Source: Oribacterium sinus (GTDB taxonomy: Bacteria > Bacillota > Clostridia > Lachnospirales > Lachnospiraceae). Taken from it: 64,000 nucleotides of DNA. The stretch is from assembly GCF_014202695.1 (NCBI RefSeq), contig NZ_JACHHH010000006.1, forward strand, positions 1-64,000. Direction: 5' to 3'. The translations under genes were made by a program, and so were the position numbers. Under the pieces are notes generated by a model. The model had not been told where the DNA came from. It saw nothing but the letters and a program-made list of their open reading frames with translations, and did no database searches. Below, one piece after another: positions 15,280 to 61,306 of the stretch. Each line of letters begins with the position of its first letter. Position 1 is the first letter of the stretch.

Positions 15280-15320
15280 GATATTTTTCTACCATAGAGT
15301 TTTTTATCCTATACGGAGAT

Positions 15321-15378
15321 GGGACTGTAAAAATCAAAATAGTTTTCTTGTTTTGATTTTTTACAGTCCCTTCTCTTT
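15321..15378 (+). terminator. Strong terminator of the hydrogenase operon
   Basis: A 19-20-base stem runs from GGGACTGTAAAAAT (15321 on) to ATTTTTTACAGTCCC (ending 15370), followed by TTCTCTTTTTTT. Its left arm, 15324-15348, is 24/25 identical to 61210-61234, upstream of a different gene. Confidence 0.92.
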
Positions 15379-44022: not shown

Positions 44023-44898
44023 ATGGCAAATATTTTTACCAAAATACTGAATAATATTTTTCAATCCAATGAGGTGGCGGATGAGGCCTTTTATGAAGAG
44101 TTGGAAGAGGCCATGATTCTCAGTGATGTTTCCTATAGCAGCTGTATGCGTATTATTGATGCGGTAAAGCATGAAGCCAATCAGCGGGGGGTAAATCTGA
44201 CCCGGGATGTGCAAAAGATTCTAAAGGACTATATCTTGGATCTGATGATGGTGGAGGAAGGCTATTACGCCTTTGAACAGGAGAAAAGCATTATCTCCGT
44301 AATCGGCGTAAATGGCGTAGGAAAAACCACATCTATCGGAAAGCTGGCCTATCATTTAAAGAAAAAAGGAAAGAAGGTTATCCTTGCGGCGGCGGATACT
44401 TTCCGTGCCGGAGCCATTGAACAGCTGGTGGAATGGGGGAACCGTGTAGGGGTGGATGTTATTCACCAAAAGGAGGGCTCCGACCCTGCGGCAGTAGTTT
44501 TCGATGCTCTTCAGTCCTTTAAGGCGAAAAATGCGGATGTTTTGATTATTGATACCGCAGGTAGACTGCACAATAAGAAAAACCTGATGCAGGAGCTTGG
44601 AAAAATCAACCGCATCATTGACCGGGAATTTGCGGAAGGCTATAGAGAAACTCTGGTGGTTTTGGATGCCACCACAGGACAGAATGCCATGAGCCAAGCA
44701 AAGCTCTTTAAAGAATGTAGTCAGGTTACCGGTGTAATCTTAAGTAAGATGGACTCCACTGCTAAAGGCGGCATGGCCCTATCCATACAGGCAGAGCTTG
44801 GCCTTCCGGTAAAATACATGGGCACCGGGGAAAGAGTTGAAAACCTACAGCGCTTCGATGCCAAGCGATATGTTGAGGATATTTTTGACTTGCATTAA
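44023..44898 (+). CDS. ftsY: Signal recognition particle receptor FtsY
   Basis: GTPase that docks SRP-ribosome complexes at the membrane. The 291-residue protein has the NG domain only: GVNGVGKTTSIGKLAYHL, ADTFRAGAIEQL, IIDTAGRLHNKKNLM, LSKMDSTAKGG and GTGERVENLQRFDA. The acidic N-terminal A domain of E. coli FtsY is absent, as is usual in Firmicutes. It stands in front of a very large palindrome and two genes upstream of ffh, its partner. Confidence 0.96.
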   Translation: MANIFTKILNNIFQSNEVADEAFYEELEEAMILSDVSYSSCMRIIDAVKHEANQRGVNLTRDVQKILKDYILDLMMVEEGYYAFEQEKSIISVIGVNGVGKTTSIGKLAYHLKKKGKKVILAAADTFRAGAIEQLVEWGNRVGVDVIHQKEGSDPAAVVFDALQSFKAKNADVLIIDTAGRLHNKKNLMQELGKINRIIDREFAEGYRETLVVLDATTGQNAMSQAKLFKECSQVTGVILSKMDSTAKGGMALSIQAELGLPVKYMGTGERVENLQRFDAKRYVEDIFDLH

Positions 44899-44903
44899 GG
44901 CAA

Positions 44904-45272
44904 AGGGGCTGTACTTCTTCAATAGTAGTCTTATGCAGTATAGGTCTGAAAGAGGGGCATGCTCCCGCTAACATTTCTATAAATTGAAGGACTGTATACT
45001 TTAAAATTTGCTTTTATGCAACATCGGTCTAAAAGTGGGGCACGCTCTCGCTAACCTCGCCACGCAGCGGTACTAACTTCAAGCTTCGCTTTCAGTAAGT
45101 ACCGGCGGGCTCAGATTACCCCTTTTTTAGACCGATGTTGCATCTAAAGCAATCCATAGATTAAGTTTTACAGTCCTTCAATTTTATTGTTAACGAACCG
45201 TCAACACTAGATTAACCCTTTTCAGACCTATACTGCATATATACTATTACAAAGGATTACAGCCCGTTTTTC
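44904..45272. repeat. Large four-level nested palindrome
   Basis: A non-coding block of about 365 bases is built of inverted repeats inside each other. Outermost GGGCTGTA (44906-44913) pairs with TACAGCCC (45258-45265), which is followed by GTTTTT. Next, TATGCAGTATAGGTCTGAAA (44932-44951) matches 45220-45239 perfectly. Then AAATTGAAGGACTGTA (44981-44996) matches 45169-45184. Then ATGCAACATCGGTCTAAAA (45016-45034) matches 45125-45143. A GC-richer centre with CGGTACT/AGTACCG (from 45068 to about 45104) closes it. The transcript could form one very long hairpin ending ftsY. The second and fourth arms are themselves similar (GCA…GGTCTrAAA), suggesting growth by insertion of related units into each other. 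No frame of note is inside. Confidence 0.9.
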
Positions 45273-45278
45273 TTTATG

Positions 45279-45323
45279 CTGTCAACAAAAATGCTTGACA
45301 GTAGGAAGCTTTTTTGTTAATTT
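45279..45323 (+). promoter_or_regulatory. Candidate ylxM-ffh promoter with dyad
   Basis: CTGTCAA (45279-45285) and TTGACAG (45295-45301) form a perfect dyad. The right half contains a consensus -35 TTGACA (45295-45300), with a poor -10 TAATTT after 17 bases. ylxM follows behind GAGGTGA. Confidence 0.4.
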
Positions 45324-61131: not shown

Positions 61132-61204
61132 GTAGAGCCTTAAATAGAAGCTTATTTATAGGTAATTATTATTGCAAAAATTTCCCACTATACAAAAAAA
61201 GGAG

Positions 61205-61285
61205 AAGAAACTGTAAAAATTAAAATAGTTTTCTAAGCAATATAGGTCTGAAAACTTCTATATTTTAATTTTTTACAGTAACTTC
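61205..61285 (-). terminator. Terminator of the yqeK-rsfS-pepF operon, repeat-related
   Basis: ACTGTAAAAATTAAAATA (61210-61227) pairs with TATTTTAATTTTTTACAGT (ending about 61279). The left arm and adjoining loop, 61210-61234, are 24/25 identical to the hydrogenase terminator at 15324-15348. The loop here carries an extra piece, GCAATATAGGTCTGAAAA (61237-61254), that matches the second arm of the large palindrome at 44904-45272. Confidence 0.8.
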
Positions 61286-61306
61286 CCCTGTAAAGATCGT
61301 GGGAAA

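Follow-up and report, generated by a model that had tools for sequence, protein, structure and literature searches.

The intergenic region between ftsY and ylxM of the mouth bacterium Oribacterium sinus contains a nested palindrome. We propose, with a probability of about 0.6, that it consists of two nested copies of a dispersed palindromic DNA element without coding capacity, which would be mobile in the manner of REPs or MITEs, served by an enzyme in trans, and whose arms would be recopied from one another. Copies of the element are dispersed over the genome, in which they lie behind stop codons and are devoid of target duplications. Further units join at the hairpin of the core, the two arms of a copy vary together and the core is found across the family Lachnospiraceae.

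Architecture of the palindrome between ftsY and ylxM

In the window, that is the whole 64,000-nucleotide stretch of DNA that was analysed, the complete two-level element occupies positions 44906..45265 between ftsY and ylxM and has no strand of its own. Its outer shell GGGCTGTA (44906..44913, plus strand), found in the same form in many copies, is answered by TACAGCCC (45258..45265, minus strand), behind which a G and five T follow, the T tract being read from the sequence at 45267..45271 (plus strand). The outer unit possesses a left arm of 20 nt (44932..44951, plus strand) that is 100% complementary to the right arm (45220..45239, minus strand). It also retains what appears to be a remnant of the core motif (44952..45004, plus strand), which the model matches weakly (12.9 bits, E 0.18) and which runs into the inner unit and forms a direct repeat with 45037-45055. 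The shell of the inner unit starts with AAATTGAAGGACTGTA (44981..45004, plus strand) and pairs with its right counterpart (45161..45184, minus strand) over 24 nt (88%, of which 16 nt are perfect). The left arm of the inner unit (45016..45040, plus strand) likewise pairs over 25 nt at 92%, 19 of them perfect, with the right arm (45119..45143, minus strand). These arms enclose an intact core (45035..45124, plus strand) that matches the family model over its full length (98 bits, E 5.1e-30), this copy being one of the 23 sequences of the model. At the centre of the core, 45068-45084 and 45088-45104 form the hairpin CGGTACTAA..TAAGTACCG (45068..45104, plus strand) at 82%.

The first-pass annotation had reported the palindrome with four pairs of arms, all of which were recovered as claimed together with a fifth pair, the central hairpin, that it had missed. 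It had also taken the second and fourth arms for related variants. This was borne out by a self-comparison of the window, in which 44906-44972 recurs in direct orientation, at 72%, as 44989-45055, so that the two arms resemble each other because the whole unit is repeated. Judged from the sequence, layers 1 and 2, like layers 3 and 4, make up the left half of one and the same element, with the right halves mirrored, which amounts to one element inside another. An assembly artefact is an unlikely source of the palindrome, since the nested design recurs at many places of the genome and in Oribacterium parvum (L038).

Folding of 44880-45300 as RNA gave -175.9 kcal/mol versus a mean of -90.85 (sd 5.57) for shuffled sequences, corresponding to a z of -15.27, and none of 100 shuffles was as good. 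A transcript of the palindrome would accordingly be predicted as strongly double-stranded, which makes it a possible candidate substrate of RNase III. The open reading frames that enter the palindrome are all small, for example 44 and 70 aa. Nothing was found in favour of a replication or recombination structure, another of the natures initially suggested for it. Within the window, the core is present solely in the ftsY-ylxM copy. Relics of the outer shell that are devoid of a core were observed at 15316-15375 and 61200-61289 as simple hairpins with T tracts, and are perhaps trimmed remnants or the ancestral state.

Copies in the genome and nesting of units

A BLAST search with the palindrome against its own genome returned at least 99 matches, with 40 of the 154 candidates scored. 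In parallel, the pattern of the right core, with up to three mismatches allowed, was matched 151 times in this genome and 0 times by the reversed control. Matches were present in 4 of the 17 Oribacterium genomes searched, among which O. parvum (G001) was the second richest. The best 100 of the 151 pattern matches and 8 BLAST places gave 108 places in 86 clusters, from which 102 cores were dissected, a set that is biased towards well-conserved copies.

From these sequences, one unit can be described as a core of about 95 nt with complementary arms and outer shells, for a total of about 200 bp. The core consists of a conserved and mostly unpaired internal loop (GGCACGCTCTCGCT.. / ..GGGCTCAGATTACC) flanking the hairpin. 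In most dissected copies the core is single, with about 70 nt between the starts of its left and right motifs. Around single cores, additional left motifs recur at about -88 (at most three per copy) and additional right motifs at about +98 (at most four or five). The 29 left and 27 right linkers that were collected are mostly of one kind, one of each stemming from a neighbouring separate core. The common nested junctions are alike (left CTCGCC..GAAGGACTGTA, right TACAGTCCTTCACTTCGCCGG..AAGTACCG), which indicates that part of the central hairpin of the host unit is lost where the inner unit sits. Moreover, the linker TAA(T/A)CC....TATTGAAG is common to 6 of the 29 left junctions, and composites therefore seem to have spread as units. 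The numbers of left and right units, as detected, are often unequal, which suggests that slippage probably adds to nesting. The inner junction of the window differs from the common type. It reads as a diverged version of it, and the window copy as a diverged two-level example. The many copies, the recurrent nested junction and the common linker support the initial proposals of related palindromic units inserted into loops and of a composite mobile palindromic element.

A different hairpin-rich module of about 104-114 bp was also observed inside the core of 7 of the 102 copies of this genome (L112:1645-1765; L109, L111, L115, L123, L132). It is present in 2 of the 17 genomes of the genus (11 and 21 matches), including the O. 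parvum loci L181-L190, with up to 96% identity between the two species.

Placement relative to genes

The 102 cores lie between convergent genes in 40 cases, between tandem genes in 53 and between divergent genes in 3, with 6 without class, which leaves a divergent share of 3/96 among those classed. Where the upstream gene points at the core, the distance from stop codon to palindrome has a median of -1 nt and 67 of 70 copies are within 80 nt. Genes were called with a home-made scorer for the contexts and gaps of this genome and as plain open reading frames in other genera. Counted by gaps, those bearing an element (n=88) are convergent in 36, tandem in 49 and divergent in 3 cases, versus 1, 59 and 18, respectively, for element-free gaps of 40 bases or more within the same segments (n=78), a biased control as these segments had been chosen around elements. 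In a set of 43 rows of shells, some of which are not true shells, T is the commonest base behind the right shell (35 to 24 rows, depending on which of the first six positions is counted), and A is the commonest ahead of the left shell. The orientation of the core with respect to tandem genes showed no significant preference (30 to 23, p 0.41).

In other genera, 92 cores were distributed as 13 convergent, 53 tandem, 11 divergent, 12 inside open reading frames of at least 80 aa and 3 at an edge. Placement behind stop codons is thus weaker outside Oribacterium. At the window copy, a simple terminator scan called no terminator, its T tract notwithstanding. Behind ftsY, the giant stem and its T tail may in addition terminate transcription of that gene.

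Distribution of the core among Lachnospiraceae

From 22 Oribacterium cores and one from another genus, a covariance model was built. At E<=1e-3 it matched 142 of 397 Lachnospiraceae genomes and 126 of 334 genera, with at most 10 candidates scored per genome and with E-values that are rough, the search being confined to the family. By hand count, the best E was above 1e-8 in 50 of the 142 matching genomes. Confinement to the genus, to which the exact pattern had pointed with matches in 2/397 genomes, was overturned by the model. When 39 local sources were checked, the model recovered the window copy, which is among its own sequences, as well as distant copies from G002 and G009; 33 of the 39 gave no match at E<=1.

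The 78 family loci that were fetched yielded 92 cores in 36 genomes. Long complementary arms accompany 78 of these 92 cores versus 7 of 92 in swapped pairs. Arms are 0.63 alike within a genome and 0.80 between own left and right, and cores are 0.82 alike within genomes and 0.67 between them. This pattern argues for an element made of core plus arms, with fast and paired change of the arms. A known structured RNA was also considered, and no Rfam match was obtained at the core stretches scanned (E<=1). A T-box leader (L226:1670-1914) and a glycine riboswitch (L259:1673-1766) were seen 87 and 235 bases, respectively, from family cores. In G328, which belongs to another genus, a left half-unit with the CACGCTCTCGCT motif occurs twice in a row to the left of the core (L206); half-unit repetition extends beyond Oribacterium. 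No published description of the repeat was present among the open-licence literature matches listed.

Covariation of the arms

In the Oribacterium genome, the left and right arms of the same copy are 0.87 alike versus 0.68 for arms of different copies, which indicates that the arms change together. By a strict rank test, the own right arm was closer than 95% of foreign ones in only 43 of 102 copies. Under selection for an RNA helix, the transcribed strand should accept G.U much more readily than A.C. Across 88 copies, those with other core lengths or N being left out, the core strand displayed 512 compensated cells, together with 52 G.T and 81 A.C that were one-sided. Viewed from the opposite strand, the latter counts become a mild G.U excess of 81 to 52 (p 0.015). 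For the transcribed strand in tandem contexts, G.U amounted to 6 versus 11 for A.C, and arms in 36 other genomes gave 12 G.T versus 23 A.C. At 14 core pairs of a diverse set, 24 double changes and 0 one-sided wobble were counted, with 5 A.C among 13 broken cells. In the family-wide alignment, 5 of 12 column pairs were out of register, so that the total of 77 G.T and 48 A.C was disregarded and seven hairpin pairs were kept (G.T 8, A.C 6). A control on 10 tRNAs (G.T 6, A.C 2) was too small to carry weight.

Compensatory changes, which the first-pass annotation had expected of an RNA, are hence abundant, yet they come without the wobble bias of RNA. Arms that co-vary with G.T not favoured over A.C favour a DNA-level palindrome over a conserved RNA, and the arms would then be read as staying complementary because one serves as template for the other at the DNA level. 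Some RNA constraint is possible, in view of the hairpin pairs of the family and of the opposite-strand excess.

Signs of mobility and search for an enzyme

With MITEs the repeat shares terminal inverted repeats, absence of coding capacity, short length and many copies. Movement itself we infer; no insertion was seen between close strains. Target duplications, which had been set as an expectation for a mobile element, did not appear, since none of at least 4 bases was found in 43 rows. Shorter flanking duplications numbered 1 for 3 bases (0.28 expected) and 3 for 2 bases (1.66 expected). The element is missing in all 4 of the O. parvum spacers with both flanks alignable, and of 13 readable ftsY-ylxM spacers that were compared, only the window's own contains it. 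The ftsY-ylxM spacers of G003 (L094) and G013 (L100) hold a long palindrome of unrelated sequence. A scan of genome contigs with YlxM gave no match. In O. parvum (L086), another short gene precedes ylxM in the place of ftsY, the end of which presumably resembles a PIN-domain toxin.

Several candidates for a mover or a carrier were considered. Stem-loop replacement of the IS1182 type by a resident transposase was rejected, the domains PF13751 and PF05598 having no match in the own genome (G000) and in O. parvum (G001). With PF01797, G000 gave two frames of IS200 type and G001 four Y1 frames (152-164 aa); length served to assign the type, together with sequence in the case of G000. The two elements of the own genome (L048 and L049) are near-identical, with 99% over 810 bases. 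Y1_Tnp is found in 9 of the 17 genomes of the genus and does not track the repeat. The host IS200 TnpA was therefore discarded as mover, its element ends being unlike the repeat as well. Among the open reading frames beside the 78 family loci there was no Y1, and no transposase-like frame was found beside family cores. In the same way, a partner gene was not retained, as six proteins from shared clusters of these frames resemble, by eye, parts of ABC transporters and Mur ligases. A search for shells returned 22 matches, and the nine core-less places viewed are hairpins or trimmed shells, with no insertion sequence with the same ends between them. Finally, spread on phages or plasmids was set aside, for searches of phages and plasmids gave no match and scans of viral contigs gave one, to the short pattern only and in coding-looking sequence, which was taken as chance. 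The form of the element itself points to a putative hairpin-acting enzyme.

Relation to known repeat systems

REP sequences, with their BIME and REPIN arrangements and the RAYT (TnpA-REP) transposase, are described as high-copy intergenic palindromes at mostly non-divergent places, with a hairpin that carries conserved unpaired bases and is often joined into larger hairpins, all of which recalls the present repeat (PMC3733652, PMC6006769). According to the same papers, REPs are species-specific and measure 20-40 or 21-65 nt (PMC3733652, PMC6006769), whereas the present repeat measures about 200 bp and its core is common to many genera. Many intergenic copies with few between divergent genes are likewise found here, more weakly in other genera. 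The canonical GTAG/GTGG foot tetranucleotide is not characteristic of the repeat, for GTAG ahead of the hairpin is a minority tag, counted in 28 of 92 family cores, versus 34 with GCAG, and in 39 of 102 own cores, versus 15 with GCAG. Furthermore, no RAYT was recognised in G000 or G001, where the Y1 matches are of IS200 type by length. The REP/RAYT system is thus the closest in its manner of working, but the repeat does not qualify as a member, given the minority of GTAG, the lack of a recognised RAYT and the spread of the core over several genera.

The BOX, RUP and SPRITE repeats of Streptococcus pneumoniae (PMC3049150) similarly amount to about a hundred dispersed stem-loop copies with an excess between convergent genes. 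BOX shares modular growth with the present repeat, and SPRITE its terminator-like position close to gene ends (PMC3049150). Compared by description, BOX grows by one-sided boxB arrays whereas the repeat here nests on both sides, and BOX and RUP are reported to leave target duplications (PMC3049150). IS1272 and IS1182 target inverted repeats at gene ends with no target duplication and with loss of the target hairpin, as seems to happen here (PMC5678879). By contrast, the repeat has no gene and the two rich genomes have no IS1182-type domain. The subterminal hairpins of IS200/IS605, which are described as read by a HUH transposase through conserved unpaired bases, are comparable as well (PMC6006769), but the ends of the two IS200-type copies of the host do not resemble the repeat.

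Interpretation and significance

In the explanation that we prefer, copies would spread as single-stranded or cruciform hairpins. An enzyme supplied in trans would move them by recognising the conserved core, much as with the hairpins of REP/RAYT or IS200/IS605. Its favoured targets would be hairpins at gene ends and the centre of the element itself, with the result that units nest. The complementarity of the arms would arise from template switching, by which one arm is recopied from the other, rather than from a need for RNA folding.

The well-conserved loop columns between co-varying stems and the strong fold could also be expected of a conserved structured RNA that multiplied, such as a 3' UTR element, a regulator or a ribozyme, with a functional core and the arms as its first stem. 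The G.U excess opposite the core strand and the hairpin counts of the family point the same way, yet neither the core strand nor the transcribed strand displays a wobble bias, no orientation to tandem genes is significant and the cores scanned have no Rfam match, so that we hold this explanation to be unlikely. Slightly less likely still are oversized terminators of common ancestry, grown by slippage and spread by recombination without an enzyme of their own. They would account for copies that abut stop codons, avoid divergent gaps and are followed by T runs, for core-less shells that are plain hairpins and for left and right unit numbers that, as detected, often differ. Nevertheless, they leave unexplained a full-length core in so many genera, placement behind stops is weaker in other genera and the simple scan calls no terminator at the window copy.

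The inverted ends, the lack of target duplication and the stem-loop places, along with the half of the host hairpin lost at nested junctions, recall what is reported of IS1272 (PMC5678879). They would suit a MITE of a stem-loop-targeting DDE insertion sequence whose parent has been lost here. As PF13751 and PF05598 are missing from both rich genomes and no insertion sequence lay between the shells of the core-less places viewed, this origin appears improbable, the most so of the three. A REP- or MITE-like element moved in trans, with recopied arms, hence remains our favoured explanation. More tentatively, and with somewhat less than even odds, the repeat could represent a Lachnospiraceae superfamily of palindromic mobile elements of about 200 bp, with a single conserved hairpin core, a structure-reading enzyme, insertion into their own centre like nested dolls and arms recopied at the DNA level. 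Such a superfamily would belong neither with REP/RAYT nor with the MITEs derived from insertion sequences, but form a third kind.

Among small dispersed palindromic repeats, the element is notable for its self-nesting and for its family-wide core. With matches in over one third of the genera sampled, and none in Rfam where scanned, this core would amount to a substantial unannotated fraction of these genomes. The repeat makes it possible to test directly by which routes long palindromes form in bacterial DNA, come to nest and keep their perfect pairing, and the co-occurrence of genes with its core is a way towards a new hairpin-acting enzyme. It also bears on the transcript ends of genes in the bacteria that host it.
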